Below are positions 5,504 to 63,990 of a stretch of DNA of 64,000 nt, in pieces. Position numbers and translations under genes: made by a program. Numbering within the stretch: position 1 is the stretch's first letter; the number at the start of each line of letters is the position of its first letter. Below the pieces are notes generated by a model, which saw only the letters and a list, made by a program, of their open reading frames with translations, was not told the DNA's origin and ran no database searches. Source of the stretch: Prosapia bicincta (taxonomy: Eukaryota > Arthropoda > Insecta > Hemiptera > Cercopidae). The stretch spans positions 285,296,925-285,360,924 of the forward strand of contig JBAIZL010000001.1 of the NCBI GenBank assembly GCA_036971475.1. Direction: 5' to 3'.

Positions 5504-5656
5504 GTCTTAAAGCTTTCACATCGATTTTTGTGATATTTTGTTTGTATTTGTTGGTGTAATATTAGTAATGTTATAAATTATTTGGTGTTTTTAAACATAT
5601 GAATTGATAAATAAAAGAATAAATATGCTACGACTCACAATTATAAAAACTTTATT

Positions 5657-5699
5657 ATCATACGCATTTCAATGACAATATGACATCATCTTTAGTGAT
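5657..5699 (-). ncRNA. Degenerate hammerhead ribozyme motif, family C, left arm
   Basis: On the minus strand stem I is AUCA / UGAU at the two ends. The first core box reads CUAAAGA (G5 changed to A), then a weak stem II, then GAAA followed by UGCGUA, where the intact arm has CGCGUA. The core change and broken stem III palindrome predict no activity. Confidence 0.55.
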
Positions 5700-6038
5700 G
5701 CTACACAATTTAAACTTAATTGAAGAAACTAAACATAACCTATAATATTCTAACAATAGTAAGAACCGGATCAGGGGATTGCCAAATTTTTCAATCACGG
5801 CTACTAATATATTTACATTGAACACCATATGATAACTACAAATATTTAATTTTGATGAACCAATAATATTAATAAAACATAATAATAACAAAATTATTGA
5901 AATAATTTGAAACAAGATAATATTTAACATTATATTAATTTAAAATATTATTGAATTTTGAATTTGTCCTAATTCATTATAACAATTTTATTTTTATTTC
6001 TATTTATAAATAAAGTTTCCATTTATTAATCTAATTTC

Positions 6039-6430
6039 TTAAAAACTTATCACATTTTTTAAAAGGACAACATTGTTACTTTTAAACTCGTGTTTCTCGT
6101 CCAAACAATGCTTTGCTATAGCTGACTTTTCAGGCCTATTATATTTAAAATGGGGAAAATGTTCTTTTGCTGTAATTTGTATGTTTCTTTTAGTTTGTCC
6201 AATATATTTCATCTGGCACACATCCCACTGTAAATCTATAAATTCCCGATTTATTTTCATTTTTTATTATATCTTTCTGTTTCCCTAATAGATTTTTTAG
6301 GTTAGTTCTTGTAACTAACTTTACTTTTACATTACTATTCTTCTCCAAAGCTTTTTTAGCCAAGTTAGATAAAGGTGGATGGTAAGTTAGATCTAATCCA
6401 TTATCTTTCCTCTCTATTTTTTAGTAGCGT
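6039..6430 (-). pseudogene. Penelope-like ORF fragment: linker plus GIY-YIG endonuclease, frameshifted
   Basis: Read on the minus strand, one frame gives a linker (KLVTRTNLKNLLGKQKDIIK) then KSGIYRF, the GIY half of a GIY-YIG nuclease. The next motif, MKYIGQTKRN, is in another frame, so a frameshift separates GIY from YIG. After it come KEHF and a segment ending AIAKHCLDEKHEF, which matches the usual helix and HxxxxxH-type tail of PLE endonucleases. In intact elements this domain nicks target DNA for reverse transcription. It lies between two inverted hammerhead-bearing arms. The RT domain is absent, so this is a dead fragment. Confidence 0.8.
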
Positions 6431-6615
6431 ACATCTTGAATTATTAATTTTCGTCCGTTTCATACGATAATATTTGTAGTAGTCATATGTTGTTCAATGT
6501 AAATATATTAGTAGCCGTGGTTGTAAATTTGGTAACTCCCAGATCTGGTTTTACTTTTTTTTTAAAACATTATAGGTTATGTTCAGTTTGTTCAATTACG
6601 TTTAAATCGTGTAGC

Positions 6616-6658
6616 ATCACTGAAGATGATGTCACATTGTTATTGAAACGCGTATGAT
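6616..6658 (+). ncRNA. Minimal hammerhead ribozyme motif, family C, right arm
   Basis: Stem I is AUCA (6616-6619) with UGAU (6655-6658). The core is CUGAAGA (6620-6626), followed by a weak AU-rich stem II and GAAAC, then the self-complementary ACGCGU that forms a two-base-pair stem III, and A at the cleavage position. This matches the minimal hammerheads reported in Penelope-like elements, which are thought to act as dimers. Stem II is poor, so activity is uncertain. Confidence 0.6.
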
Positions 6659-6710
6659 CAAAATGTTTTTATAATTGTAAGTCGTAGCATATTTATTCTT
6701 GTATTTATAA

Positions 6711-8571
<1,861 letters not shown>

Positions 8572-9115
8572 TTCTTCTTCTTAGTGTCCCGTGACCTAAC
8601 GAACGTCGGCAACCATCAACGCTATTTGAGCCCACTGCTCTCCTAAAAAGTGTCCTTGTGCTGGCTCCTTACTATTATCGTAAGTTCTTTAGCCAAAATG
8701 TCCTGCGTAACAAACCTCTTGTGCAATCAATTTTACCTTGTGTAATAAGCTGAGCAGTTGATATTTTGTAATACTTAAATTATGGTCGAAATATTCTAAC
8801 TTCCTCTGTTTGATTTAGTCTTTGATTTAGTGTGTATGGATTAGGTTTGTTCAGCTGATTGATGTGTTTAGGACTTTGTCAACCCTCGAAATACGCAGCA
8901 TACGCCGGTAGGTCCACATTTCGAAAGCTTCCAGTCTCTTACACGTGGGATATGGGACTGCCCTTGCTTCAGCTGCATACATGAGTATACTGAACACATA
9001 ACATCTAAGGATACGAATCCTTAAGGGCAGATCAAGGCTGCATACTAAGGCCTCCATTTTGGTAAAGGAGCCTCGAGCTTCATGTTATAATTACTACAAT
9101 AAAGAGTAATTATAC
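8572..9115 (-). pseudogene. Decayed LINE reverse-transcriptase C-terminal fragment
   Basis: The minus strand reads ILRCYVFSILMYAAEA, then CKRLEAFEMWTYRRMLRIS, the classic end of the RT/thumb region of insect non-LTR retrotransposons (usual form LL-YG-E-W ... KRLEAFEMWxYRRMLxISW). Beyond a stop near 8851 the similarity continues in fragments: KYQLLSLLHKVK and, near 8580-8660, a GEQWAQIALMVADVR-like tail followed by a HEEE-type end. Several stops and frameshifts interrupt it. The 5' part (endonuclease, RT palm) is missing, as expected of a 5'-truncated LINE copy. The clade cannot be fixed by eye. Confidence 0.8.

Positions 9116-11621: not shown

Positions 11622-11623
<2 letters not shown>
11041..11623. 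other. Nothing recognised
   Basis: AT-rich spacer without repeats or open frames of note. Confidence 0.4.
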
Positions 11624-11682
<59 letters not shown>

Positions 11683-11708
11683 AGGAAACAGTGTTGCATA
11701 ATCTACAA

Positions 11709-11754: not shown

Positions 11755-11756
<2 letters not shown>

Positions 11757-15194: not shown

Positions 15195-15290
15195 TCTCTT
15201 GAATTATATAGTCCATTGCGTTCGGTGAACCTCAATTAATCACTTTTATATTAGTTTATGGCTATCCGAACTTTAATTTGACCTTACTGA

Positions 15291-15335
15291 GACAAAACGT
15301 TTTCGATCCCTCTGTGGCCGATTTTCATCAGTGTC
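15291..15335 (-). ncRNA. Minimal hammerhead ribozyme motif, family B
   Basis: Minus strand: stem I GACA (15335-15332) pairs with UGUC (15294-15291). The core box is an intact CUGAUGA. Stem II is formed by AUC/GAU with a GC-rich internal part and the loop ACAGA. Then come GAA and the palindromic AACGUU giving a two-base-pair stem III, with U at the cleavage position. All parts of a Penelope-type hammerhead are present, and this is among the best-preserved in the window. Confidence 0.7.
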
Positions 15336-15560
15336 TAAATGTTCCGCTGGAGTTGTTGTTAAGTTAAGCGGTGACGGTTTTAATAGCAGGTTTTCGATAG
15401 TATCAAAGAATATGTGCGATTTGTATTGGGTTTGTTCGTTTAATATGTTTGTATTTTGTGTTTTTGTAAATTTCCTATTGTTCTGTGTTTTGAGATGTGG
15501 TCCTTTTTTGTTGATGTGTAAGATTTCTAGGTTATGGTAAATGCTTGTGTATGTGTGTCC
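15336..15560 (-). pseudogene. GIY-YIG endonuclease C-terminal tail of a Penelope-like element (family B)
   Basis: The minus strand reads through LTHQQKRTTSQNTEQ, EIYKNTKYKHIKR and IAHILFDTIEN. This aligns with the tail of the longer copy at 19230-19931 (NTLEQFGIYRHSNTHKND ... SHILFDHIT). In PLEs this region follows the catalytic GIY-YIG core, which is missing here. A stop interrupts the frame just after NTEQ. The hammerhead-bearing terminal repeat follows directly downstream on the minus strand. Confidence 0.75.
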
Positions 15561-15944
15561 CGTTTCTTTAAAGCGATTAGAGAATGCTGTCTCAGTACGT
15601 TTTTACAAATTTACAAAATTAAAGTTCGGATAGTCATGAACTAATGTAAAAGTGATTAAGTAGTACTTTCGTCCTTGAAATCGTTAATTCTAAAAGGAGT
15701 GAGTACGAAAGGTATTCTAAAGGAGTATTAAAAGGATCTTTTGGGTTTAGTAAGCATCAATTTAGGTGGTTTTTATTCACCTCTTAACACAAATATAAAC
15801 ACATGAATTTTATTACATTATTTGAGAATTCAAAGAATGTCTTTTCATCTTAACCTTTCATCGAAAGTAAGTACTTTGTTGTGTTTTAAATTATATTGTT
15901 GTGCTTCGTTTTTTTTTGTAACCAACGTTTATTCCATTATAAGC

Positions 15945-17150
15945 AGCCATCAGCTTCATTAGCTAATATCAATTTGGAGAATTTACGTTCATCTTTACAT
16001 ATAAGAACGATAGGAAAGACAGACGGGATCAAAGAAAGACGGAGAGAAACAGAGGAGAGTAGTGAAATAGAGAGAGAAATACTTTCATTCCACCATGAGC
16101 ACCCATAAACTATCAATTTGGAGAACGTACGTTTACCTCTATTTATAAAAACGATGGGAAAAACAAACGGGAACAAAGAAAATCAAAGGGGGAAACGGAG
16201 AGGATGATGGTGAATCAAAGAGACAGAGAAGAGAAAGAGAGCGGGAGACTGAGAGAAAAAGAGCATGAGCATTTATCAACATTAACTATTATCAATTTGG
16301 AGAATGTACATTTAACTAGGGGATGATGGTGAATTAAAGAGACAGAGAAGAGAAAAAGAGCGGAAGATCATGAGAAAAAGAGCGTGAGCATTTATCAACA
16401 TTTGCTATTATCTATTTGGAGAATGTACATTTAACTAGGGGATGATGGTGAATTAGAGAGACAGAGAAGAGAAAGAGAGCGGGTTATAAAGGGAAAAAGA
16501 GTTTGAGCATTTATCAACATTTGCTATTATCTATTTGGAGAATGTACATTTAACTAGGGATTGATGGTGAATAAGAGACACAGAGAAGAGAAAGAGAGCG
16601 AAAGATTAAGAGAAAAAGAGCACGAGCATTTATCAACATTAGCTATTATCAATTTTGAGAATGTACATTTAACTAGGAAATGATGGTGAATTAGAGAGAC
16701 AGAGAAGAGAAAGAGAGCGGAAGATCGAGAGAAAAAGAGCATGAGCATTTATCAACATTAGCTACTATCGATTTGGAGAATGTACATTTTTAACTAGGTG
16801 ATGATGGTGAATTAGAGAGACAAAGAAGAGAAAGAGAGTGGGTGATCAAGAGAAAAAGAGCACAAGCATTTATCAACATTAGGTAATATCAATTTGGAGA
16901 ATGTACATTTAACTAGGGGATGATGGTGAATTAGAGAGACAGAGAAGAGAAAGAGAGCGAGAGATTAAGAGAAAAAGAGCATGCTCAATTATCAACATTA
17001 GCTATTATCAATTTGGAGAATGTACATTTAACTCTACGTTAGGGCGAAAGGGAAAAACAGACGAGGATAGAGAAAGACAGACGGGATAATAGTGAAATAG
17101 AGAGAAAGAGAGCAGGAGATCAAAATACAGCGAGAGAAAATGCCACCTTT
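15945..17150. repeat. Purine-rich tandem repeat, ~120-bp unit, 7-9 copies
   Basis: The word gagcatttatcaacatt recurs near 16267, 16386, 16506, 16625, 16744, 16864 and 16984, a period of 119-120 bp. Each unit also carries atttggagaatgtacattta and a long GA-rich stretch (agagacagagaagagaaaga). Copies at the two ends (15945-16200 and 17030-17150) are more diverged. The plus strand is strongly purine-rich for over a kilobase. Open frames inside are artefacts. Confidence 0.93.
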
Positions 17151-17982
17151 TAACAAAAAATATTGAAAGTATTTTTGTGTGGTTTTGAAGTGTAATTAAA
17201 AACTATAAAACTGACAACCTACACCTTATTTTAATTTTCGCAAAAACATTACAAAACATATTCATACTAAATTGAAATAGAGTAAAATCCATCTCTAACG
17301 CCAACCGTAAGCAATCTGCTCGCAGAACAATAGAATAAGACATTAGCTTAAGCCAGGTGTGGGTTCCTATTGATTCCAAAGCAATCCGAAACTCTCGTAC
17401 TGAAGCACACCTGTGTCTCACAGGCACCGTTGTATATCTTTCTTAGCTTAGTGATGCTTCCGAACTGACGCGAATGTAATCTGTGATCAACTCTACAGCA
17501 TTCTCACAGTTCAAAGGACTTTATAAACCAAACAAATCTAAACGTTAAGATAATCTGTTGTTTCAGATTTATAGTCTCGCTTGATAACGAAGGAATTTCT
17601 TCATTTCAGTTTTTAGAGGACTGAAAAGGCAAGTAAAGCGTCGTTTGTTTATTGTATAGATGTTTCTGATAGTTAACGATTGATTTATTACTAGGTCGTA
17701 TTGTTAAGTCATCGAAATACACCAGACTTAGGTTTTTAGTTAAAACCGCATTTAAACGTAGGATGCTAGTGATTGGGAGCGGACCTTACACAATTTTTAA
17801 AATAATTTTGTGGTACAGTTTTATATTATTTCTTCGAAGTTTCCAATATTATGGCATTTGTGCAAATGATTTTTTTTTGTAAAAACAAAAACAATTTTAA
17901 AAAATTAACACGTTCCTTATAATTATGAAAATTATAAAACTTTCCTTAAATACCAGGAAAACTGGAACACTTTACAACATTA
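17151..17982. other. Nothing recognised
   Basis: The minus frame at 17203-17427 is the only notable one; it has no recognisable motif. Otherwise AT-rich. Confidence 0.4.
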
Positions 17983-18059
17983 ATCACTTTAACAATAGTT
18001 TACGACTATCCGAACTTTACAGTTTGTAAATTTGTTAAAACTTACTGAGACAGAACGTT

Positions 18060-18590
18060 TTCGATCCCTCTGTGGCCGGTTAAGCGGTGACGGTTTTAAT
18101 AGCAGGTTTTCGATAGTACCAAAGAGTGTGTGCGATTTGTATTGTGTTTGTCGTTTAATATATTTGTATTTTGTGTCTCTGTAAATTTCATATTGTTCTA
18201 GTGTGTTGAGATGTGGCCCTTTTTTGTTGATGTGTAGGATTTTTAGATTATGATAAATGGCTGTGTATTTGTGTCCTGATTGTTTTATGTGATTGTAAAA
18301 TGTTGAGTTGGTGTTCCTCGACTCTTTATTTAAAGCTGCGACCTGTTTGTCCAGTAGAATTTGTTACATTCGTGCAATTTAGTTTCTATAAGCCTTGTGC
18401 CTGTAGTTTATCTTTGTTGTTGGTGTCGTGTTGTATTTTGTATTGTAACTTGTTATTAGTTTTGTATGCTATTTCGTATCCAATTTTTTGAAATTTGTGG
18501 GCTATTTTGTATGTTGTTTTGTTTATTTTAGTGTTTTTTTGTATTTTGTACCATAGTTTGTCTACTATTGTGGTGTTTTATCCATTTGTG
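18060..18590 (-). pseudogene. Penelope-like linker and GIY-YIG remnant, family B copy 2
   Basis: In scattered frames the minus strand reads IAHKFQKIGYEIAYKTNN (linker), then GQTGRSFK and EEH from the nuclease core, and later EIYRDTKYKYIKR with TLFGTIENLLLKPS. Order and wording parallel the intact-looking copy at 19230-19931 and the 15.3-kb fragment. Several frameshifts and stops show it is dead. The hammerhead at its 3' end has lost the CUGAUGA half by deletion: the GAAAACGUU half remains near 18047. Confidence 0.75.
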
Positions 18591-18678
18591 TATGCTAAAT
18601 ATTTCAAATTACACTTCTGCTATTACTTGCGACCAGATATTTGTTAACTAAAAGTTATTAATTGTTAACTTACACTTG

Positions 18679-18712
18679 GAGGAAACTTTCGTCTTACGAC
18701 TTCTTCAGCCTC
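18679..18712 (-). ncRNA. Damaged hammerhead motif, family A, minus copy
   Basis: Minus strand: stem I GAGG/CCUC is intact, core CUGAAGA is present and stem II GUC-GUAA-GAC is intact. After GAAA a two-base deletion destroys the palindromic AACGUU of stem III. Probably inactive. Confidence 0.6.
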
Positions 18713-19222
18713 GTATTTTTGCCGCTAGGAATGCTGCTGTTGTGCTTCCTCGGTACCATTTTTTGAAAAATAGTAGTGATGTGATCGAAAAGTATGTGTG
18801 ATTTGTGCCGTGTTTGTTCATTTAAGATGTCATTTTTATGTGTGTTGCTATGTCTATATATTTCAAACTGTTCTAGTGTGTTTAATTTATGGCCTTTGTT
18901 GCATGTGTGGAGGATGCTCATGTTATTTTCCATACTTTTGCATGAGTGTTTAGTGTCCATGAGGTGATTTGCGAAGGTGGATTCAATAATAGTGTGCAGT
19001 GCCTTTTTGTGTTCTTTATATCTTTCGGCGAAAGATCTGCCTGTTTATCCAATATAGAAATTATTGCAGTTGTTGCATTTGTCCTGGGTTATTGTATGTG
19101 TTGAGATTGTTTTTAATAATGTGTCTGATAGCCGTTTGGGTTTTATTTGTTGTTCTGTAAGCTACATTGTATCCTGATTTTTTGAATTGGTGCGCTATGT
19201 TATTTGTGAGTGTGTTTATGTT
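18690..19222 (-). pseudogene. Penelope-like GIY-YIG endonuclease fragment, family A, minus copy
   Basis: Mirror copy of the plus-strand fragment next to it. The open part (18694-18960) reads MDTKHSCKSMENNMSILHTC and LNTLEQFEIYRHSNTHK, nearly identical to the plus copy. Further upstream the nuclease core has a small deletion that removes the GVYKLK part. The YIGQTG motif is broken by a stop where the plus copy has Gln. It is therefore a pseudogene. The two copies meet at about 19222-19228, giving a long imperfect palindrome that could form a hairpin of several hundred base pairs. Confidence 0.85.
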
Positions 19223-19229
19223 GTATTGG

Positions 19230-19931
19230 GTGGTTCACGCAGCATTCATACATTTACTATACAGACTAAATAAAATACCTATGTCCACATCTAACTACAC
19301 AGAGGAACTAAATACAATCAAATATTTAGCTCACAAAAATGGATATGACAATTATTTAATAGACAAACTACACAGAAAAATACTCAACAAAAACACGAAC
19401 ACAAACAAATTCATCACCCTCACATACATAAACAAACTCACAAATAAGATAGCACACCAATTCAAAAAGAGATACAATGTGGCTTACAGAACAACAAATA
19501 AAAGCCAAACGGCTATCAGACACAGCATTAAAAACAATACCAACACATACAATAACCCAGGAGTATATAAACTAAAATGCAACAACTGCAAAAGGTTCTA
19601 TATTGGACAAACAGGCATATCTTTCGCCGAAAGATATATAGAACACAAAAGGGCACTGCACACTATTATTGAATCGACCTTCGCAAATCACCTCATGGAC
19701 ACTAAACACTCATGCAAAAGTATGGAAAATAACATGAGCATCCTCCACACATGCAACAAAGGCCATAAATTAAACACACTAGAACAGTTTGGAATATATA
19801 GACATAGCAACACACATAAAAATGACATCTTAAATGAACAAACACGGCACAGATCACACATACTTTTCGATCACATCACTTCTAACTTTCAAAAAAAAGG
19901 TACCGAGGAAGCACAACAGCAGCATTCCTAG
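19230..19931 (+). CDS. Penelope-like element, partial ORF: RT tail, linker and GIY-YIG endonuclease (family A)
   Basis: The frame stays open to a TAG stop at 19929-19931. Its upstream 60 bases (from 19167) are antisense of the inverted copy, so the real element sequence starts near 19230. Order: the end of the RT region (AFIHLLYRLNKIPMS, YTEELNTIKYLAHKNGY), a linker (KKRYNVAYRTTNKSQTAI), then GVY at about 19560, a CxxC pair (CNNC) and FYIGQTG. Then come AERYIEH with the conserved Arg and His, an ESTFANHL segment with Glu and Asn, and a His/Cys tail. This is the GIY-YIG nuclease that nicks target DNA for Penelope retrotransposition. Most of the RT is missing, so it is a 5'-truncated copy although the remaining frame is uninterrupted. 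It is the best-preserved protein-coding mobile-element piece in the window. Confidence 0.88.
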   Translation: MVHAAFIHLLYRLNKIPMSTSNYTEELNTIKYLAHKNGYDNYLIDKLHRKILNKNTNTNKFITLTYINKLTNKIAHQFKKRYNVAYRTTNKSQTAIRHSIKNNTNTYNNPGVYKLKCNNCKRFYIGQTGISFAERYIEHKRALHTIIESTFANHLMDTKHSCKSMENNMSILHTCNKGHKLNTLEQFGIYRHSNTHKNDILNEQTRHRSHILFDHITSNFQKKGTEEAQQQHS

Positions 19932-19943
19932 CGGCAAAAATAC

Positions 19944-19979
19944 GAGGCTGAAGAAGTCATAAGACGAAAACGTTTCCTC
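19944..19979 (+). ncRNA. Minimal hammerhead ribozyme motif, family A, plus copy
   Basis: All elements are in place: stem I GAGG (19944-19947) with CCUC (19976-19979); core CUGAAGA (19948-19954); stem II GUC (19956-19958) with GAC (19963-19965) over an AUAA loop; GAA; then AACGUU, which allows a two-base-pair stem III in a monomer or a longer palindromic stem in a dimer; U before the cleavage site. It lies just 3' of the ORF stop, where Penelope terminal repeats carry such motifs. Confidence 0.72.
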
Positions 19980-20240
19980 CAAGTGTAAGTTAACAAATGT
20001 CTGGTCGCAAGTAATAGAAAAAGTGTAATTTGTTATGTACAACCAGCTCGTCATGAACAGCAACAAGATTTCGCTAAATATTTAATTGTGTCTAGTTCTT
20101 TGTTTATGTTTTCTGTGGTAACTGCTTGACCCAACATCTCCAAGCAGAAGATACTGATGAAAATCACCAGATAGCGATAAATTTACAAAATTTAAAGTTA
20201 GGATAGTCGTAAACTATTGTTTAAGTGATTAATAAGATTC

Positions 20241-20648
20241 ACCGAACGTAATGGACTAAATTCAAGAACTTTACAACAATAACAAAAAGACTAACCCAAT
20301 ACAAGAATAACTTTTCTAATAAATTATTGAGAAATAAGTTCTTCTCGATTTATTATAAATGTTTTAGCGTTATTTAGTAATATCTATTAATCAACATGGG
20401 TGACTGAAATCAGTCCGGAGGTTTTTTTTATAACGAAACTCGGTGAAGGTTTCTGTTATGGGCGCTAAGCTGGATAGAATGATCGACGGCTAGTTTCAAT
20501 ATCTTCACTACAAAGGAATTATATCAAAAAAATCGGGAGTATAGGTAAACAAATGGATAGCTCTTTAGTGGTTCACCCAGACCCTTCATAGAATACATAT
20601 TGACGCATGTCTTGTCATACATTGTGACATCGCAAGTTTTCGATACAA
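20241..20648. other. Family B flank then unrecognised sequence
   Basis: Up to about 20265 the sequence still matches (inverted) the outer family B phrase at 15195-15230. Beyond that nothing is recognised. Confidence 0.45.
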
Positions 20649-28161: not shown

Positions 28162-28631
28162 TGGTTTGGGTGATGCCTAGGAAGTAGCTACCATAGGGGC
28201 TAGTGACTGAACATACGTCAACGAATACATACGCTAACAGTGTTTTGTTTCTGTTCATGGTGTTTAGGGGCAGCGATTTAATTGGAAAGGTTGCTAAACA
28301 CGTCCAGTGGCGGATCTAGAAAAATGTTTTGGGGTAGAGAGTGGAGAAGGGGTCTCCCGCATACAGAAACTATTGAGGAAATATCGTAGCTATAGTGTAA
28401 ACTCTAAGGGTTTTCTAATAGTTATAGGCCTACTCTGTGACATTAAACACTCGTTAAATAGTCTCCTTTATCTTGTATTTACAATAAAACTGCCTATTCA
28501 TTACATTGCGGGTGGACGAATTAATGATTATACTGTATTGCACTATTACGGCTATTAATATGGGAATCTTGCTGCTGTTCATGACGAGCTGGTTGTTAAC
28601 TAAAAGTTGTTAAATTGTTAACTTACACTTG

Positions 28632-28667
28632 AAGGAAACGTTTTCGTCTTACGACATCTTCAGCCTC
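28632..28667 (-). ncRNA. Hammerhead ribozyme motif, family A, minus arm
   Basis: Stem I GAGG with CCUU (one G-U pair), core CUGAAGA, stem II GUC-GUAA-GAC, GAA, AACGUU, U. All essential parts are present, with a slightly weakened stem I. Confidence 0.65.
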
Positions 28668-28790
28668 GTGCTGCAGTTGTGCTTCCTCGGTACCATTTTT
28701 CCGCACACACTCTTCGATCACATCACTTTTAACTTTTAAAAAAATTGTACCGAGGAAGCACAACTGCAGCATTCCTAGCGGCAAAAATAC

Positions 28791-28824
28791 TATGCTGAAG
28801 AAGTCGTAAGACGAAAACGTTTCC
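28791..28824 (+). ncRNA. Hammerhead ribozyme motif, family A, plus arm
   Basis: Core CUGAAGA (28795-28801), stem II GUC-GUAA-GAC, GAA and AACGUU are intact. Stem I is damaged: UAUG replaces CGAGG and leaves a single pair. Probably inactive. Confidence 0.55.
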
Positions 28825-29095
28825 TCCAAGTATAAGTTAACAATTTAACAACTTCTAGTTAAGAAAAAGTCTGGTCGCAAGTAATAGCAAAAGTGTAATA
28901 AGTAATTAATATGGGTTGTAAACATATATTTCTAATTAATCAGTAGGTATAAATCTGGGACTAACGGGTGTACGCAAACATAGGAAATGGCATTTTATTA
29001 TTTTTTTATAGTATTATTTTATAGTTTAAAAATTTTCACTCCCAAATTTTTTGGGCACTTGAGCAACAAATCGTCTCTCCTTAAATCCACCACTG

Positions 29096-40320: not shown

Positions 40321-40886
40321 CCCCTGACTATACACTTCTACTGATATCCAGGGACGCATTATTAGCAATGAAAAACTTCTTGTAGCCTACTCAACATTGG
40401 ATTGAATCTACCTCGTATAAAAAAGTAGTAGATAGTGTACAAGAAGATACAACAGAAAGGCATTTAACAAAAATACGAATAATATAGATAGTGTACAAGA
40501 AGATGCAACGAAGAGTCATTTATACACTAATATATTCATACAAAGGCAATATATATGAAGGGCTATTTAAAACGTAAGAAACCATCCTACCCGACTACCT
40601 GCCTTAAACCGTCGAAAGTCGCATATTTTTCATTTACAACCATCTACTCATAAATAATGTAATATATTTATGTAGGCTTGTGGAACCTGAAAACCCAGAT
40701 GGAGACACTAAAGGAATTCCGGAAAATGGTGAACAATTCAATTGTAATACCTTAGCCCATTTACTGTAGTGAATGTGACCCAAACAATGGATCTTGATTT
40801 GAAGTCGTTCCTTGATGAGCGTTACGTGAAAAAATGTCCTTTCATAATCCAAGAATTGAAGGACGTAAGTGTAGAAGGAAGAAGTG
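40321..40886. other. Unrecognised, with one short local duplication
   Basis: tagatagtgtacaagaagat occurs at about 40430 and 40487 with similar flanks. No gene seen. Confidence 0.5.
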
Positions 40887-43800
40887 TAACATCTTCGTCT
40901 AAGAAACTTCTACAGCACCGATCAAATTACAGTAAGATCTTCGCCTAAGAGACTTCTATACCACCGATCAACCTACAGTAACATCTTCGTCTAAGAGACT
41001 TCTACCATCTATCCACCTACAGTAACATCTTCGTCTAAGAGACTTCTATACCACCGATCAACCTACAGTAAGATCTTCGCCTAAGAGACTTCTATACCAT
41101 CTATCCACCTACAGTAACATCTTCGTCTAAGAGTCTTCTATACCATCTATCCACCTACAGTAAGATCTTCGTCTAAGAGACTTCTATACCACCGATCCAC
41201 CTACAATAACATCCTCGTCTAAGAGACTTCTATACAACCGATCCACCTACAATAACATCTTCGTCTAAGAGTCTTCTATACCACCGATCAACCTACAGTA
41301 AGATCTTCGTCTAAGAGACTTCTATACCACCGATCCACCTACAATAACATCTTCGCCTAAGAGACTTCTATACCACCGATCAACCTACAGTAACAACTTC
41401 GTCTAAGAGACTTCTATACCACCGATCCACCTACAATAACATCTTCGCCTAAGAGACTTCTATACCACCGATCAACCTACAGTAAGATCTTCGTCTAAGA
41501 GACTTCTATACCACCGATCAACCTACAGTAACAACTTCGTCTAAGAGTCTTCTATACCACCGATCAACCTACAATAACATCTTCGTCTAAGAGACTTCTA
41601 TACCACCGATCAACCTACAGTAAGATCTTCGTCTAAGAGACTTCTATACCACCGATCAACCTACAGTACCATCTTCGTCTAAGAGATTTCTATACCACCT
41701 ATCAACCTACAATAACATCTTCGCCTAAGAGACTTCTATACCACCGATCAACCTACAGTAACATCTTCGCCTAAGAGACTTCTATACCACCGATCAACCT
41801 ACAATAACATCTTCGCCAAAGAGACTTCTATACCACCGATCAACCTACAGTAACATCTTCGCCTAAGAGACTTCTATACCACCGATCAGCCTACAATAAC
41901 ATCTTCGTCTAAGAGACTTCTATACCACCGATCAACCTACAGTAACATCTTCGCCTAAGAGACTTCTATATCACCGATCAACCTACAATAACATCTTCGT
42001 CTAAGAGACTTCTATACCACCGATCAACCTATAGTAACATCTTCGCCTAAGAGACTTCTATACCACCGATCAACCTACAATAACATCTTCGCCTAAGAGA
42101 CTTCTATACCACCGATCAACCTACAGTAACATCTTCGCCTAAGAGTCTTCTATACCACCGATCAACCTACAGTAACATCTTCGCCTAAGAGACTTCTATA
42201 CCACCGATCAACCTACAATAACATCTTCGCCTAAGAGACTTCTATACCACCGATCAACCTACAGTAACATCTTCGCCTAAGAGACTTCTATACCACCGAT
42301 CAACCTACAATAACATCTTCGCCTAAGAGTCTTCTATACCACCGATCAACCTACAGTAACATCTTCGCCTAAGAGACTTCTATACCACCGATCAACCTAC
42401 AATAACATCTTCGCCTAAGAGTCTTCTATACCACCGATCAACCTACAATAACATCTTCGTCTAAGAGACTTCTATACCACCGATCAACCTACAGTAACAT
42501 CTTCGCCTAAGAGACTTCTATACCACCGATCAACCTACAGTAACATCTTCGCCTAAGAGACTTCTATAGCACCGATCCAACTACAGTAACATCTTCGTCT
42601 AAGAGACTTCTATACCACCGATCAACCTACAGTAACATCTTCGCCTAAGAGACTTCTATACCAACGATCAACCTACAATAACATCTTCGCCTAAGAGACT
42701 TCTATAGCACCGATCCAACTATAGTAACATCTTCGTCTAAGAGACTTCTATACCACCGATCAACCTACAGTAACATCTTCGCCTAAGAGACTTCTATACC
42801 ACCGATCAACCTACAGTACCATCTTCGTCTAAGAGACTTCTATACCACCGATCAACCTACAGTAACATCTTCGCCTAAGAGACTTCTATACCACCTATCA
42901 ACCTACAATAACATCTTCGCCTAAGAGACTTCTATACCACCGATCAACCTACAGTAACATCTTCGCCTAAGAGACTTCTATACCACCGATCAACCTACAA
43001 TAACATCTTCGCCAAAGAGACTTCTATACCACCGATCAACCTACAGTAACATCTTCGCCTAAGAGACTTCTATACCACCGATCAGCCTACAATAACATCT
43101 TCGTCTAAGAGACTTCTATACCACCGATCAACCTACAGTAACATCTTCGCCTAAGAGACTTCTATATCACCGATCAACCTACAATAACATCTTCGTCTAA
43201 GAGACTTCTATACCACCGATCAACCTACAGTAACATCTTCGCCTAAGAGACTTCTATACCACCGATCAACCTACAATAACATCTTCGCCTAAGAGACTTC
43301 TATACCACCGATCAACCTACAGTAACATCTTCGCCTAAGAGTCTTCTATACCACCGATCAACCTACAGTAACATCTTCGCCTAAGAGACTTCTATACCAC
43401 CGATCAACCTACAATAACATCTTCGCCTAAGAGACTTCTATACCACCGATCAACCTACAGTAACATCTTCGCCTAAGAGACTTCTATACCACCGATCAAC
43501 CTACAATAACATCTTCGCCTAAGAGTCTTCTATACCACCGATCAACCTACAGTAACATCTTCGCCTAAGAGACTTCTATACCACCGATCAACCTACAATA
43601 ACATCTTCGCCTAAGAGTCTTCTATACCACCGATCAACCTACAATAACATCTTCGTCTAAGAGACTTCTATACCACCGATCAACCTACAGTAACATCTTC
43701 GCCTAAGAGACTTCTATACCACCGATCAACCTACAGTAACATCTTCGCCTAAGAGACTTCTATACCACCGATCAACCTACAATAACATCTTCGCCTAAGA

Positions 43801-45135
43801 GACTTCTATACCACCGATCAACCTACAGTAACATCTTCGTCTAAGAGACTTCTATGCCACCGATCAACCTACAGTAACATCTTCGCCTAAGAGACTTCTA
43901 TACCACCGATGAACTTACAGTAACATCTTCGCCTAAGAGACTTCTATACCACCGATCAACCTACAATAACATCTTCGCCTAAGAGACTTCTATACCACCG
44001 ATGAACCTACAGTAACATCTTCGCCTAAGAGACTTCTATACCACCGATCAACCTACAATAACATCTTCGTCTAAGAGACTTCTATACCACCGATCAACCT
44101 ACAGTAACATCTTCGCCTAAGAGACTTCTATACCACCGATCAACCTACAGTAACATCTTCGCCTAAGAGACTTCTATAGCACCGATCCAACTACAGTAAC
44201 ATCTTCGTCTAAGAGACTTCTATACCACCGATCCACCTACAGTAATATCTTCGTGTAAGAGACTTCTATACCACCGATCAACCTACAGTAACATCTTCGC
44301 CTAAGAGACTTCTATACCACCGATCAACCTACAGTACCATCTTCGTCTAAGAGACTTCTATACCACCGATCCACCTACAGTAACATCTTCGTTTAAGATT
44401 CTTCTATACCACCGATCCACCTACAGTAACATCTTCGCCTAAGAGACTTCTATACCACCGATCCACCTACAGTAACATCATCGTCTAAGATTGTTCTATA
44501 CCACCGATCCACCTACAGTAACATCTTCGTCTAAGAGACTTCTATACCACCGATCCACCTACAGTAACATCTTCGTCTAAGATTCTTCTATACCACCGAT
44601 CCACCTACAGTAACATTTTCGTCTAAGAGACTTCTATACCACCGATCCACCTACAGTAACATCTTCGTCTAAGATTCTTCTATACCACCGATCCACCTAC
44701 AGTAACATCTTCGTCTAAGATTCTTCTATACCACCGATCCACCTACAGTAACATCTTCGTCTAAGAGACTTCTATACCACCGATCCACCTACAGTAACAT
44801 CTTCGTCTAAGATTCTTCTATACCACCGATCCACCTACAGTAACATCTTCGTCTAAGAGACTTCTATACCACCGATCCACCTACAGTAACATCTTCGTCT
44901 AAGATTCTTCTATACCACCGATCCACCTACAGTAACATCTTCGTCTAAGAGACTTCTATACCACCGATCCACCTACAGTAACATCTTCGTCTAAGATTCT
45001 TCTATACCACCGATCCACCTACAGTAACATCTTCGTCTAAGATTCTTCTATACCACCGATCCACCTACAGTAACATCTTCGTCTAAGAGACTTCTATACC
45101 ACCGATCCACCTACAGTAACATCTTCGTTTAAGAT
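40887..45135. repeat. Satellite-like array, 46-bp unit, about 92 copies
   Basis: Unit: acatcttcgtctaagagact, tctataccaccgatccacct, acagta. Variants: cgcc/cgtc, atcaac/atccac, cagta/caata, gagact/gattct. Proximal and middle copies mostly have atcaac, distal ones (from about 44340) atccac. Higher-order structure is visible: 41697-42565 and 42893-43761 share rare variants (ccacctatc, cgccaaagag, gatcagcct, tatatcacc) at a fixed offset of 1196 bp, which is 26 units. The distal part shows gagact and gattct units in partial alternation. Stops in all frames; no protein. Confidence 0.97.
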
Positions 45136-47678: not shown

Positions 47679-49690
47679 GCTTATTGTAGTTGACTGATTT
47701 ATTGAGCAAAGAGCTGATAGCAGGGTAATGTTACGCGGTTTGCTTGTTGTAGTTGCCTGATTTATTTAGCAAAGAGCGGATAGCAGGGTAATGTTACGCG
47801 GTTTGCTTGTTGTAGTTGCCTGATTTATTGAACAAAGAGCTGATAGCAGGGTAATGTTACGCGGTTTGCTTGTTGTAGTTGCCTGATTTATTGAACAAAG
47901 AGCTGATAGCAGGGCAATGTTACGCGGTTTGCTTGTTGTAGTTGCCTGATTTATTTAGCAAAGAGCTGATAGCAGGGTAATGTTACGCGGTTTGCTTGTT
48001 GTAGTTGCCTGATTTATTGAGCAGAGCTGATAGCAGGGCAATGTTACGCGGTTTGCTTGTTGTAGTTGCCTGATTTATTTAGCAAAGAGCGGATAGCAGG
48101 GTAATGTTACGCGGTTTGCTTGTTGTAGTTGCCTGATTTATTGAGCAGAGCTGATAGCAGGGTAATGTTACGCGGTTTGCTTGTTGTAGTTGCCTGATTT
48201 ATTTAGCAAAGAGCGGATAGCAGGGTAATGTTACGCGGTTTGCTTGTTGTAGTTGCCTGATTTATTGAGCAGAGCTGATAGCAGGGTAATGTTACGCGGT
48301 TTGCTTGTTGTAGTTGACTGATTTATTGAGCAGAGCTGATAGCAGGGTAATGTTACGCGGTTTGCTTGTTGTAGTTGACTGATTTATTGAACAAAGAGCT
48401 GATAGCAGGGTAATGTTACGCGGTTTGCTTGTTGTAGTTGCCTGATTTATTGAGCAGAGCTGATAGCAGGGTAATGTTACGCGGTTTGCTTGTTGTAGTT
48501 GACTGATTTATTGAGCAGAGCTGATAGCAGGGTAATGTTACGCGGTTTGCTTGTTGTAGTTGACTGATTTATTGAACAAAGAGCTGATAGCAGGGTAATG
48601 TTACGCGGTTTGCTTGTTGTAGTTGCCTGATTTATTGAGCAGAGCTGATAGCAGGGTAATGTTACGCGGTTTGCTTGTTGTAGTTGCCTGATTTATTGAA
48701 CAAAGAGCTGATAGCAGGGTAATGTTACGCGGTTTGCTTGTTGTAGTTGCCTGATTTATTGAGCAGAGCTGATAGCAGGGTAATGTTACGCGGTTTGCTT
48801 GTTGTAGTTGACTGATTTATTGAGCAAAGAGCTGATAGCAGGGTAATGTTACGCGGTTTGCTTGTTGTAGTTGCCTGATTTATTGAGCAGAGCTGATAGC
48901 AGGGTAATGTTACGCGGTTTGCTTGTTGTAGTTGACTGATTTATTGAACAAAGAGCTGATAGCAGGGTAATGTTACGCGGTTTGCTTGTTGTAGTTGCCT
49001 GATTTATTGAGCAGAGCTGATAGCAGGGTAATGTTACGCGGTTTGCTTGTTGTAGTTGCCTGATTTATTGAACAAAGAGCTGATAGCAGGGTAATGTTAC
49101 GCGGTTTGCTTGTTGTAGTTGCCTGATTTATTGAGCAGAGCTGATAGCAGGGTAATGTTACGCGGTTTGCTTGTTGTAGTTGACTGATTTATTGAGCAAA
49201 GAGCTGATAGCAGGGTAATGTTACGCGGTTTGCTTGTTGTAGTTGCCTGATTTATTTAGCAAAGAGCGGATAGCAGGGTAATGTTACGCGGTTTGCTTGT
49301 TGTAGTTGCCTGATTTATTGAACAAAGAGCTGATAGCAGGGTAATGTTACGCGGTTTGCTTGTTGTAGTTGCCTGATTTATTTAGCAAAGAGCTGAGAGC
49401 AGGGTAATGTTACGCGGTTAACTAGCATGAAGGTTTGCGTGTTGTAGTCGCCTGATTTATTGAGCAAAGAGCTGAGAGCAGGGTAATGTTACGCGGTTTG
49501 CTTGTTCTATTTGCCTGATTTATTGAGCAAAGAGCTGAGAGCAGGGTAATGTTACGCGGTTTGCTAGTTCTATTTGCCTGATTTATTGAGCAAAGAGCTG
49601 ATACCAAGGTAATGTTATGCGGTTCTCTAGCTCTGAAGGAATGCTTGTTGTAGTCACCTGATTTATTGAGCAAAGCGCTGAAAGCAGGAT
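47679..49690. repeat. Satellite-like array, alternating 63- and 61-bp units, about 32 copies
   Basis: Unit: gttgtagttgcctgatttat, tgagcaaagagctgatagca, gggtaatgttacgcggtttg, ctt. A shorter type has gagcagagctg in place of gagcaaagagctg (61 bp). The types are ordered in a higher-order pattern: the block at 48626 recurs at 48998, an offset of 372 bp, equal to three long plus three short units. The 3' end (after 49400) is more diverged and holds small insertions. The minus frame 49422-49673 is an artefact. Confidence 0.97.
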
Positions 49691-54176: not shown

Positions 54177-54465
54177 TGAAACTCTATATCTTTGTAGACT
54201 GTTTTATGTCACATATTAAGAAGAACTCATAGAAAATGCAAATATGAAATAAGAGGCGGGGTTTAAAAGTAGGGTGATGAGAAAAAGTAAGTGGACTTAT
54301 CTATGTACAACAGAGGTGACGACTCGATCACCAAATGTTCTTATAGTTTTATTTATATGTAATGATAAATAATTAATAGTAATGTTTTTTTTTTATTTTG
54401 AATAGTTTCTTACTATACTTTACTAAAACAAATAGAAGACATACACAAGACTCGTAAATTAATCA

Positions 54466-54505
54466 TGACTCATACGCGTTTCAATGACAAAGTCATCATC
54501 AAAAA
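54466..54505 (-). ncRNA. Partial hammerhead motif, left arm
   Basis: Minus strand: UUGAUGA (C3 changed to U), stem II UGAC-UUU-GUCA, GAAAC, palindromic ACGCGU, A, then UGAGU. The 5' strand of stem I is lost. Confidence 0.5.
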
Positions 54506-54577
54506 TTAATGTTGCTGCTACAAACTCCAACTTACAACTAAGGTCCTTAGTTGTAGGTTAGAGTTTGTAGTAGCAAC

Positions 54578-54617
54578 ACTCACTGATGATGACTTTGTCA
54601 TTGAAACACGCATGAGT
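54578..54617 (+). ncRNA. Hammerhead ribozyme motif, right arm
   Basis: Stem I ACUCA (54578-54582) pairs perfectly with UGAGU (54613-54617). Core CUGAUGA is intact. Stem II is UGAC-UUU-GUCA. GAAAC is present but preceded by two extra U. Stem III has ACACGC where the palindrome ACGCGU is expected. Between them the two arms hold all parts of an intact motif. Confidence 0.6.
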
Positions 54618-54668
54618 CAATAAATGATAAATTTGTTGAGTCTTGTGTATCTTTGTTATTTGTTTTAA

Positions 54669-55291
54669 CATAAACTCACAAGCTAAGCTCCAATAATAGT
54701 TGTATATTTTACTCATTCCACAACCGATGTTGCATTTTACTTAACAAAATAAATTAGTGAGAAATAATAATAAAAGAAGTAATTAAAATTTCAAGTAAAT
54801 CCAAAATAATATATTTTGAATTATATTTTTTACATTTTATTAATTTTGTAATGGTTTAAGTGATTAATTTGTAATTGAAATGCAATTTTTAAAATATGGT
54901 TTCAACGTAATGCCATCTTGATTAAACCTAACGCAACGCACCTAATGTATAATGGAGATAAAGGAATCAGGATTAACGTCCTATTATAGTTGGTTTCACT
55001 TCAAAGGAGAGATTACCAATGGCTCTGAAGTCATAGATAAGAAAGGGAAGCGACGTTCTAATCTGAAATCTTAACATGTTGAGTATAATGTGGTTTTAGT
55101 TCCTGCATTATCCGAAAGATGGGTGGCCGAGTTTTGCGGATAATTATCTCCCGAGTTGAAGGTAATACTTTCCTTAAACTTCAGTCCTAGTCTCTGAAGG
55201 AACTGTCGCGGGATTTTCCCTAACAAGGTTTCTGTCTTGCCAGGTTTTTTAATCAGGCTCTTAGCGCGAGACCTGTTTCATTTTCACTATC
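54669..55291. other. Nothing recognised
   Basis: AT-rich then moderately GC-richer; no open frame with a motif. Confidence 0.4.
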
Positions 55292-57800: not shown

Positions 57801-57960
<160 letters not shown>

Positions 57961-59190: not shown

Positions 59191-60666
59191 AGTCACTCGC
59201 TTATTTCGAAAATTTGGAAGCTGAAAAGTTGATGATACATTTTTCAGTAACACAAGTGTAGAAATCTGTTTATGGCATTAGCATTACGTCTTAGCCAAAC
59301 TGTATTAGTTTTATCATGAGATGTGCCTTTTAAAACTGCGATAATATTGCCAAGCTTAATAATAAAGAAAACTACGTCTAAATAAATAGTCTTGGAAGAC
59401 AAAGAGACTTTGATGCTGAGGTAAGAATAATATAGCTTTAAACAAATACAAAAGAATATTATTCAAAAGTTTTTATAAGATTAGAGTCTATTGTTACTGT
59501 ACGCACTTAAACAGAACTTAACTTCGTCTCCATTCATTAAAATTCAAACAAATTCCTCGATAAGTTATTTAAAACAATCCTGACTAAATCTTATTTAAAA
59601 TTGTCGATACTGTAGTGATTTAAACTTCATTATTCTTCTATCTCGTAAAGAATGTTTTTTTTAATTAAGGAAAATAAAAAAAACCTCTTTGTTAGCGCAA
59701 AGTAGTATAAGTCCTTTTGTTGTAAGAAGACAAGCTTCCTCGCCCCTCTTTCTCCTCCTTTAGTGAAAACAGAAAATAAAAATAAAACACGCAAACGAAA
59801 TCCCTTTTCATTGTTACAGACGTATTTTTTTCAGTCAGTAAAGAAAAACAAAGTTTTAAACAAGAGCAAAAGAAAATGAATCTTGAAAGTATGGTTTGTT
59901 AGCGAAAACACGAATAAGAGGATGAAATGATGACAGAATGGGGCTATGTGTATAGGGAGGGGAGTTGAACCTTTTTATGAATACACAAGTAATTTCATTA
60001 TAACGGGAAAGTACTCGACTTTTATAAGATATATGCCTCGTATTTATTTCAAAGGGTAAACGTTAGTGTTTTTTTGTATTCTGTGAGGTAAAAAAAAAAC
60101 CTAAGAAGATTCTTACAGATGCTAAAAAAAATTTATTGAGGTTAAATTGAATTTTGCAATATTGATGAAATTGTTGTATAAATAAAATTTAGGCCTATAT
60201 ACTTTTCTTAAATTTGTACTTTTCTTCAGGAAGGCTCCTTCCGGAACGTGACTGCTTTAATTTCGGGGGAAATTTAAAGTGGATGTGATGAAATTCAGCA
60301 TAAAATAACTCACTGAACAATGCGTAAAGTTATAAATATTTTGGAATCCTTCGTTCAGAAATTAATTTTCTAGTGTTATTTACTCAAATAACGAAGGTCT
60401 TGGAATACACAGACATAGAAAGTTTCGTAATAAAAGCCATTAGCTGAATCAGAGCAGCTACTTAAATAAATCCAACTACTTGCAACCACATCAAATATTA
60501 GGAAAGGATTGGCAAAAATCGAGCATAAAATAGCACCTTTTAAATAGTGGATGAACGGGTGATAAATAAGTGTTTTCATTAAAACAGTAATTGAACATGG
60601 TATCGAAATAAATCTGAATGTTTGATAAGTAATTAGTATTTTCATAACAGCACCCACCAAACAGAG
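59191..60666. other. Nothing recognised
   Basis: AT-rich intronic sequence; the minus frame 60376-60675 has no motif. Confidence 0.4.
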
Positions 60667-61303
60667 TTTAAACACTGGTACAACGTGGCTAAATGGTTTA
60701 ACGGTGGTACGACATAGCTAAATTGTTTACACAGTGATATGATATGGCTAAATGGTTAAAACAGTGCAAAGAAAATGACTCAATCCTTTAAACAGTGTTA
60801 CAATATATCTTAATGCTTTAAACAGTGATACGACGACATGGCTAATTTGTTTTAAACAATGCTGCAATATAGCTTATTGCTTTAAACAGTGATACGACAT
60901 AGCTAATAGCTTTAAACAGTGATACAACATGGCTAATTGCTTTAAAAAGTGATACGACATGGCTAATAGCTTTGAACAGTGATACGACATTTCTAATAGC
61001 TTTAAACAGTGATACACGACATGGCTAATAGCTTTAAACAGTGATACAACATGGCTAATTGCTTTAAAAAGTGATACGACATGGCTAATTGCTTTAAACA
61101 GAGGTAAAAATGACTAAAGGTTTAAACGTATGACAACACGGCTAAATTGTATTAAACAGAGCTACGGCAATGCTAAATGGATTAAATAGTATTGCGACAC
61201 AGCTAAATGGTATTAAACAGTGTTACGACAAGGCTAAATGATTTAAAACTAATTGCAACATAGCTAAATACTTTAAACACTACAAAGAAATAGCTAAATG
61301 GAA
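60667..61303. repeat. Degenerate minisatellite, ~30-bp unit, about 20 copies
   Basis: Unit: gctttaaacagtgatacgac followed by atggctaata. The middle copies (60870-61090) are best preserved; outer copies drift in length and sequence. The array ends about 80 bp from the 5' splice site at 61380. Confidence 0.9.
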
Positions 61304-61380
61304 GGCCATTTGTGATCTTGAATGTTTCGCAGAGCAATTTGATAGCTGAATATAGTAGTATTGTAAGTCTGAAGCCTCAC

Positions 61381-61608
61381 CTGTATGTGATAGATAGTAT
61401 CCGGCCACAGAGACAGCGTGACGCAGGTAGAGTCCGTGAAGAGGTTACCTTTAAGTCCACCGCCATCCACTTCCCAAGTGACAAAGTAGACCGCTCTAGA
61501 CGTCGGGATTGGGGACTGAGGGTCCCAAGCGATCTCGGCAATCACTAGCACCTTCTGGTGGATCAAGGAGATTTCCCGAAGGTTCCACATGTTGTTCCGT
61601 GGATCGTC
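61381..61608 (-). CDS. Exon encoding most of a fibronectin type III domain
   Basis: On the minus strand the exon follows a 3' splice site (cctaatatttgtccag) and ends CAG before a strong 5' site GTGAGG; 228 bp, phase 0 at both ends, 76 codons. It reads DDPRNNMWNLREISL, VLVIAEIAWDPQ, AVYFVTWEVDGGGLKGNLF, CVTLSLWPDTIYHIQ. The order of a B-strand Trp, a C-strand W in VTWEV, an E-strand Leu and the F-strand Tyr of DTIYHIQ is that of an FnIII domain lacking its last strands, which the next exon (26826-27141) supplies. The wording GGGLKGNL ... LSLWPDT recalls anosmin-1/Kal-1 FnIII domains, but I cannot confirm this. Upstream exons must lie beyond the window. Confidence 0.82.
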
Positions 61609-63063
61609 CTGGACAAATATTAGGAGCTTCTATATATACAATCTCTAAAACTATAAGGGATAGTTCAAGAATATATGTAATCTAAGTGGTTAAAATAAAA
61701 AAACAGAGCATGATAATTTGTTTAGATAATTAAAACTCAATTTACGTCTGCAGTCTGACACATGAAACGAACGATTCACTAAATTTTAAAAATGTTTTCA
61801 AATTCTTTGATATAATAAAATTATGCTCTTTTCAAGTAATAAAGGTTTTCTAAAAATAAAAATTTAAATGTATATTTAAAAAATCAAAACCTGCAAAAAA
61901 CCACTGTAGTGTACCAATTACACTACACTGTAACAATTACTATTGTGAGGGCAAGTAACGATACAAAAGTACAGTTTATTATACGTAATGTTTAAGTTAT
62001 GTAAAACATTTCGAATTTCAGTTAAATCATTGCAGTGAAAATAACATTCTTCCAAATCTGCCAGCATCTAGATGACACCAGGCAAAATGTCGTGCGTCCA
62101 AAGGCTTGATGAATTAATCATAATCTACGGTACGGGACTCATTTGAAATGTAAAGTTGTACAGCGGATAGCTATTGAGTAGGTTTGGGACTTATTGCATG
62201 TGGGAGTAGCGTCAGCCCTCAGCAATGCAAGAAGAAGAAATTTATGCATGTTTTATTGGCAGTGCAAGCATTATATTACTGTTTACAATAAGGGTCAGCC
62301 TGAAGGTTAAAGTTCACGATATGGGAGAAAACAAGAAGGGTTAAATATTTCCATGCAATATTAGTCCGTGGATGTTATAAGCTTATAAAAATGTGAAAAT
62401 ATTACGCTATTCTTAAAAAAATATATGTAATAAAAATTATATATTTGAGCAATTTTTAAAAACAAAATAAACAATTAAAATATTTTTAAACAAAATAACT
62501 TTTCACTACGTTTTCAAGAAATAGTTCACCACTGTCTCCGTGGTAGAGCGGGGCAGCCTCAACAGTTGCTACTTCATCACAAAGTGTTTATTGACTTGGA
62601 TTTATTTAATGAATAATTGTACACAAAAATTACCATTGAAGACTGACAAATGGTTTTATTTTGTATGTAGTCGTTCCCCTCAGACACAATTTTTATAGGT
62701 AGCTGTTAAGTGCCTTTGCATGAACATCTTATTTCGAGTGAAAGAACAGATGCCAAAATATAATGTAGGCGCAGCGTAAATTTAAGCAATAGAATACACG
62801 AACGTTTCCTTTACAACAGTAAATCCAGAAATAGTGAACCTTTAGCTGTTATTCTTGTTGGTAAAACACTTCATTAACATCATGTAGAAATGTTACCTTT
62901 TCCGTCTATTGGAAGAGTTAATAAATTTTGTAGTTTACGACAGAAGGGCGTTATATTATTACCCAAAGAAAAGGCGTTATATTATTACCCAGAGATACAG
63001 TTAACTGTTAATTTAATGGAGAAGGGGAATATACTGTAGTGTGATATGTCGGACAATGTAAAC
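61609..63063. other. Intronic/upstream sequence, no exon recognised
   Basis: No further FnIII-like or signal-peptide exon found on the minus strand. A stop-free minus-strand stretch near 62520-62590 (VATVEAAPLYHGDSGE) lacks a 3' splice site, so it is not called. Confidence 0.4.
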
Positions 63064-63735
63064 GGGGCGAGGTGAAGGAGTTACTGGTGTATATATTTGG
63101 TGAAAATGTTTTAAACGTAGTTTGTTTTGTAAATTAGCTCTGAGGATAATTGGTGTGCAATCGAAATGTACATAAGGTGTTAAATAAATGAAAAACATTA
63201 CGCCACAGTTGATTTATGTAGTTGAATTCATATTTATTGATGAATATAATTTTCAATCAATTATTTAATTGATACGTTTTTGGTATCGTTCCTCTTATAT
63301 GTTTACGTACTTTTTATATACCTGATAGAAATTTGGAAATTATGATTCGTGTAAGAAAGTTAATTTACTTAGTGGGGATGCTAGTACGTCTCATATTAGG
63401 GGCGAGGTGAAGGAGTTACTGGTGTATATATTTGGTGAAAATGTTTTAAACGTAGTTTGTTTTGTAAATTAGCTCTGAGGATAATTGGTGTGCAATCGAA
63501 ATGTACATAAGGTGTTAAATAAATGAAAAACATTACACCACAGTTGATTTATGTAGTTGAATTCATATTTATTGATGAATATAATTTTCAATCAATTATT
63601 TAATTGATACGTTTTTGGTATCGTTCCTCTTATATGTTTACGTACTTTTTATATACCTGATAGAAATTTGGAAATTATGATTCGTGTAAGAAAGTTAATT
63701 TACTTAGTGGGGATGCTAGTACGTCTCATATTAAG
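63064..63735. repeat. Near-identical tandem duplication, 336-bp unit, 2 copies
   Basis: 63064-63399 and 63400-63735 begin ggggcgaggtgaaggagtta and end gctagtacgtctcatatta. I saw essentially one difference (attacgccac versus attacaccac) over 336 bp, so the duplication is very recent or an assembly artefact. AT-rich, no coding. Confidence 0.93.
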
Positions 63736-63812
63736 GAAAGAGCTAGGGATAAGGCATGTTCGGCACAGCCAGGATATGTAAGTCAGGTTAGATCATACAG
63801 ACTATATGTATG

Positions 63813-63990
63813 CATATATGTTTGAGTAAATTTTTCTGCCATTCCTAACTTTTCAATATTCTCTTCTGTTGAAGCGTTAAACATCAATAGTACTCTTGAA
63901 GTTTTGAAAATGGAGTTAATCCGAAACGCGTCAACAAAAGAGAATATTGAAAAGCTAGGAATGGCAGAAAAATGTACTCAAAACATATAG
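63813..63990. mobile_element. Penelope-like terminal repeat pair, family D
   Basis: Inverted arms: tgccattcctaacttttcaa then tattctctt (about 63838-63866), and aagagaatattgaaaagct then aggaatggcagaaaaa (63936-63972), extending to gtttgagtaaat / gtactcaaaac. The 70-bp centre holds a hammerhead-like motif. No coding remains; the right end is close to the window edge. Confidence 0.65.
63901..63935 (+). ncRNA. Degenerate hammerhead motif, family D
   Basis: Stem I GUU/AAC; first core box UUGAAAA (two changes from CUGANGA); stem II GGA-GUUAA-UCC; GAAAC; palindromic ACGCGU; C at the cleavage position. The 3' half is perfect, the 5' core decayed, so it is probably inactive. Confidence 0.5.

Follow-up and report, generated by a model that had tools for sequence, protein, structure and literature searches.

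What kind of element leaves hammerhead ribozyme motifs as pairs of opposite orientation, and how are such pairs inserted? The question is raised by a stretch of 64,000 nucleotides (nt) of the genome of Prosapia bicincta (Hemiptera; Cercopidae), positions 285,296,925 to 285,360,924 of contig JBAIZL010000001.1 (assembly GCA_036971475.1), referred to here as the window. A preliminary description had listed ten hammerhead sites of Penelope-like elements (PLEs) in it, elements whose insertion mechanism is still poorly known (PMC11167929). The four families of minimal PLE-type hammerheads proposed there are borne out and are distinguished by their stem I sequences: A (AUCA/UGAU), B (GACA/UGUC), C (GAGG/CCUC) and E (ACUCA/UGAGU). 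We find that each pair of minus- and plus-strand sites corresponds to the two outward-facing 3' ends of a single insertion, since target duplications flank the pair (exact and 11-12 bp long in insertions A, B2, C and D; the 11-bp duplication of the family E insertion has a single mismatch; Table 1). Partner arms are often without a motif because they are truncated. Copies terminate at either of two sites, the outer one adding a tail of ~32-40 nt, and wherever both ends of an insertion could be typed, exactly one is tailed and the other tail-less. These ends are probably the products of target-primed reverse transcription from both cut strands, with two start sites used once each. The joining of sites into single insertions, the tails and an extra nucleotide within the motif go beyond the preliminary description.

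The one-tail rule was established on family C, for which 60 genomic loci (L001-L060), chosen by the hammerhead core, were analysed together with the two window insertions. Among the 46 pairs recovered, both ends could be assigned in 38, and all 38 combine one tailed with one tail-less end; three of them form one tandem in L036, leaving 36 independent cases. The tail lies on the left in 17 and on the right in 21. Exact duplications of at least 11 bp flank 21 of the 38 pairs, compared to 2 of 698 mismatched pairs. Families A, B, E, G and I follow the same rule in 9/9 typed insertions, namely A, B1, B2 and E in the window, three of family G and two of family I, the G and I insertions having been typed by eye from printed arms. 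The outer ends are offset by 36 nt in A and by 39 and 32 nt in the two family I insertions; the automatic offsets for family G (89, 24 and 32) are unreliable, the targets being AT repeats. Inspection by eye of 100 listed exact tail ends revealed no outward-facing pair with two tails within 5 kb.

In order to rationalise these ends on the molecular level, we propose that the element protein would cut both target strands and that each 3' end would prime complementary DNA (cDNA) on element RNA, as the products suggest. The hammerheads would lie slightly upstream of two reverse-transcription start sites. The end positions are consistent with one strand priming at the inner site, which would leave no tail, and the other priming at the outer site ~32-40 nt downstream, which would add one; the truncated 5' ends of the two cDNAs would then be linked, head to head. 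Two-ended priming, with one site for each end, would account at once for outward-facing 3' ends, a single duplication and exactly one tail per insertion. In a lizard PLE, the purified enzyme cuts the two target strands, extends each of them and initiates at two adjacent sites within the RNA (PMC11167929). Poseidon of the green anole further resembles the elements described here in combining, as these probably do, reverse transcriptase (RT) with GIY-YIG, in carrying a hammerhead near the start region and in having a 30-40 bp tail between the two start sites, whereas it differs in that the tail is called optional there and is present exactly once per typed insertion here (PMC11167929).

Several points weigh against this interpretation. 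No target duplication was found for B1, 8 of the 46 family C pairs remained untyped with an end decayed or cut, and 23 family C arms were without a partner. As the sample demanded the motif in one arm, the distribution of arm 5' ends is biased. For the lizard element, top and bottom strands showed no difference in start site, an observation that does not bear on whether one molecule uses both sites, and the hammerhead shows no cutting without protein (PMC11167929); all catalysis proposed here is deduced from sequence. Moreover, the two cDNAs are not fully independent, as the 5' ends of the two arms lie too close together: they fall within 40 nt of each other in 19/38 pairs, compared to 7.0 in permutations.

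Further signs of a connection between the arms were seen in shared rare variants: 18 pairs hold 25 of them, where control means predict ~3.8, and two pairs contribute 14 of the 25. A nearest-relative test of the arms, which has little power at 81 columns, placed the partner distance (0.086) at the median of the others. The tail-less arm is the longer one in 25 of the 33 pairs that differ by at least 5 nt (two-sided p 0.0046, three rows being one tandem), as though a leading polymerase were trailed by the other. Such behaviour would suit a concerted two-ended insertion, in which each cut strand would prime at its own start site, the sites lying ~35 nt apart and the template being perhaps a single RNA or else a dimer held together by the palindromic hammerhead, and in which the hammerhead would be kept for RNA pairing as much as for cutting. 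We offer this extension tentatively, lending it slightly less than even credence.

The near-symmetric arm 5' ends, beyond what permutation yields, and the rare variants shared in some pairs are also consistent with self-priming, in which the cDNA or an antisense template folds back and is copied, giving a head-to-head pair. This has been suggested for rotifer Penelope elements: in the accessible part of PMC3846280, those of Adineta vaga share with ours the inverted head-to-head ends, the target duplications and the tail on one inverted end, and differ in being explained by self-priming on an antisense template. However, a fold-back copy should yield two tails or none, and neither outcome occurs among the 38 typed insertions; the single tailed end of each thus argues against simple self-priming. 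The junctions are blunt, carry short filler or show small overlaps, the inner ends vary from copy to copy, and the arm lengths differ by hundreds of bases, so that the blunt and filled junctions and the unequal arms also speak against a fold-back origin, which we consider unlikely.

Somewhat less probable still is that the hammerhead cuts tandem transcripts and that the cut RNA becomes the insertion template. Conservation of the motif in seven families would support this, as would the dimer cleavage published for PLEs according to titles in reference lists. Yet among 76 arm 5' ends, not one comes within 2 nt of position +28, the end predicted for the cleavage product, and ~12, including three that belong to a single tandem, are found at -5 to -3, where stem I starts; this evidence is weak, the sample having demanded the motif. 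Insertion in vitro is normal for catalytic mutants of the lizard element (PMC11167929), and the absence of arm ends at the cleavage site agrees with insertion there not needing the ribozyme. It is thereby weakly shown that hammerhead cleavage is not the source of the usual template end. Many arms have their end at the opening base of stem I, which may instead reflect the 5' end of the RNA. Besides the cluster at -4, the family C arms of L001-L060 show a second cluster of 5' ends near -190 to -180.

The motifs themselves are, by their sequence, minimal type I hammerheads of the PLE kind, with self-cleavage predicted. Re-reading of the window letters confirmed the quoted sequence at 10/10 listed stretches. 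Taking as intact a site that keeps CUGANGA and GAA with at least 4 bp of stem I, we count four (6616+, 15290-, 19944+ and 28632-), so the figure of at least nine copies was too high; a further five are decayed by reading of the letters. At 63901-63935(+), with UUGAAAA instead of CUGANGA and a stem I of 3 bp, a hammerhead is not supported. Both family E sites, 54466(-) and 54578(+), are without one ATG triplet present in other copies of the family. An apparent lack of the invariant C3 in most family E copies (658 exact matches with A in its place) was dropped as a 3-nt slip over ATG repeats: the family keeps CUGAUGA-U-GAUGAC, and many of the 658 matches are the same copies shifted by 3.

The possibility that these sites are chance look-alikes draws on the Rfam searches, which returned no hammerhead at the gathering score in the window and none at E up to 10 in the window or in 15200-20100, an outcome that the preliminary description had named as refuting its claim. 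A strict canonical descriptor likewise gave 0 matches in the window because stem II is not flush after CUGANGA. When 0-2 unpaired nt were allowed beside stem II, together with a near-palindromic 6-nt stem III, 4/10 listed sites passed, with 0.0033 expected per 64 kb under a Markov null. Omission of the stem I condition produced 5 matches (null 0.15), four of which have a stem I of at least 4 bp although it was not demanded, indicating that the search criteria did not select for the pairing of stem I in this set. A generic descriptor, which required of stem III only A at the start and T at the end and stems I and II in part, was run on the window plus the 60 loci (360,127 bases) and returned 66 family C-like readings and 28 others, against 0.27 expected for the 28. 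A core of CUGANGA and GAA, with H preceding stem I, is present at 4/10 listed sites and at the 28 non-C sites.

Pairing evidence bears on the same alternative from both sides. The covariation of stem I claimed earlier holds between families and fails within family C, where 94 arms show 0, 0, 0 and 1 double changes in the four pairs and pair no better than independent columns, so that changes in genome copies do not preserve pairing there, the second outcome named as refuting in the preliminary description, yet one expected of neutral decay in dead copies. Compensatory pairing is seen between families in stems I and II, part of which the descriptor demanded, and within stem II of family I. Two stem II pairs had been left unspecified in the family I query; of 100 listed places, which derive from a few subfamilies, 97 and 99 pair at these positions, compared to an independent-column expectation of 50 and 78. 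Taken with the null expectations above, this makes a chance origin very improbable.

Canonical spacing, with stem II directly after A9, is not that of these motifs: exactly one extra base separates A9 from stem II in 26/28 non-C sites and in 66/66 family C readings. The two exceptions are window sites: the family B site, which is damaged, and the family A site, which can also be read with one extra base if stem II has 4 bp. Families A, B, C, E, G, H and I, seven in one genome, have A or U at this position, and C occurs in single family C copies (1/94 arms). An A inserted likewise after A9, ahead of stem II, is described for the plus-strand hammerhead of chrysanthemum chlorotic mottle viroid (PMC3705267), which differs in being a viroid ribozyme with no retroelement; there the ribozyme with this insertion is active, A being tolerated, U cutting faster and C or G being harmful.

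A palindromic stem III was found in 28/28 non-C sites although the descriptor did not demand it. The palindromes outside family C are AACGTT, ACGCGT, AAGCTT, ACTAGT, ATGTACAT and ATATATAT; in family C, AACGTT is exact in 42/66 readings, the remainder being mostly point changes or shifted readings. A family I hammerhead at L022 7419-7467 has its 8-nt palindrome ATGTACAT changed to ATATATAT with the palindrome preserved. Between families the letters of stem III vary and its palindromic character persists, which favours a role in dimers, in which the palindromic stem III would let two copies pair as a double hammerhead. A double hammerhead is indeed the predicted dimer of the 19944 copy, and another pairing is predicted for the dimer of the typed family C consensus.

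As to the identity of the elements, an open frame in the family C insertion ends 12 nt upstream of the start of the hammerhead motif and shows G-V-Y, Y-I-G, R and E in succession at its end, an order that we take to be the signature of a GIY-YIG nuclease. The first part of this frame overlaps the opposite arm. It has 9 homologues, and although the window copy holds the C-terminal part only, one metagenome homologue with 38% identity has an RT domain upstream and shows RT and GIY-YIG in one protein. Pfam gave no match on the window fragments. In family B, the hammerhead motif reads on inside the frame. With the PLE hallmarks of 5' truncation, inverted terminal repeats, short target duplication and an optional 3' tail all present, the elements are probably endonuclease-bearing PLEs, as part of the same joint explanation as two-ended priming. 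Inverted arms and short target duplications would also fit miniature cut-and-paste DNA transposons with terminal inverted repeats, but the variable inner ends, the outer ends unequal by a fixed length and the long arms with PLE coding sequence leave this the least credible of the alternatives.

Minimal type I hammerheads of PLEs were reportedly described by Cervera and de la Pena in 2014 and by Lunse, Weinberg and Breaker in 2017. As far as the accessible parts of the literature go, their presence in PLEs and their action as dimers are already published. The motifs described here agree with the published ones in being type I with a tiny stem III, in lying in PLE terminal regions and in being thought to act as dimers, as far as reviews and reference lists represent them; in the genome studied here, an extra A or U follows A9 in seven families. 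In the PLE literature surveyed we found no statement of a strict one-tail rule, the tail being optional in PMC11167929 and in the accessible part of PMC3846280. Metazoan retrozymes, which are short non-coding tandem repeats with canonical type I hammerheads and loop contacts, do not match the window copies, which are inverted instead of tandem and are missed by Rfam. A tandem array of four family I hammerheads in 132-bp steps at L005 1692-2130 is retrozyme-like.

Nor is the density of motifs special to the window, as had been thought. The genome searched comprises 2.2 Gb in 361 contigs, and all match counts are lower bounds. The family C core has at least 5,943 + 5,837 matches (up to 2 mismatches; 42 + 44 for the reversed pattern), the family E core at least 1,606 + 1,606 (up to 1 mismatch; control 0), and family I, absent from the window observations, at least 10,203 + 10,279 (up to 1 mismatch; control 0), more than 20,000 in all. 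More than 6,000 type I hammerhead motifs in 16 families have been published for a coral, according to the accessible part of PMC7229834.

Table 1 Insertions, hammerhead sites and associated features in the window
Feature	Positions	Strand	Remarks
Family A insertion	5609..6742		inverted pair, tail-less end left, tailed right; 12-bp target duplication 5597-5608 / 6743-6754
Family A hammerhead	5657..5699	-	decayed (CUAAAGA)
Family A hammerhead	6616..6658	+	core, stem I and ACGCGU palindrome intact
Family B insertion 1 (B1)	15197..15659		tailed end left, tail-less right
Family B hammerhead	15290..15336	-	core, stem I and palindrome intact; stem II weaker than in genome copies
Family B insertion 2 (B2)	17980..20267		tail-less end left, tailed right; 11-bp target duplication
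Family C insertion	18605..20072		tail-less end left, tailed right; 11-bp target duplication 18594-18604 / 20073-20083
Family C hammerhead	18679..18712	-	decayed, stem III partly lost
Open frame	19161..19931	+	GIY-YIG-like motif at end (C-terminal part of PLE protein)
Family C hammerhead	19944..19979	+	intact; extra A after A9; AACGUU palindrome
Family C tail	20033..20072	+	right arm
Insertion D (second family C)	28565..28904		tailed end left, tail-less right; 11-bp target duplication 28554-28564 / 28905-28915
Family C hammerhead (D)	28632..28667	-	core intact; extra U after A9
Family C hammerhead (D)	28791..28824	+	stem I lost
Family E insertion	54425..54702		tail-less end left, tailed right; 11-bp target duplication, one mismatch
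Family E hammerhead	54466..54505	-	decayed (C3 lost, one ATG triplet lost)
Family E hammerhead	54578..54617	+	stem I intact, one ATG triplet lost
Palindromic element at window end	63815..63989		contains site 63901-63935; hammerhead unsupported

The family C insertion is nested inside B2. Elsewhere in the window, 40886-45134 holds an array of ~92 copies of a 46-bp unit and 47679-49624 a satellite array whose unit measures 63 bp, with longer forms as well; two 335-bp units with 99% identity (63064-63733) lie near the palindromic element at the window end.

Two consequences follow for these elements. A motif of CUGANGA, one A or U, stem II, GAA, a palindrome and H provides a descriptor that catches the putative ribozymes where Rfam fails. 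The strict one-tail rule, in turn, would mean that priming occurs on both target strands and that neither start site can stand in for the other.

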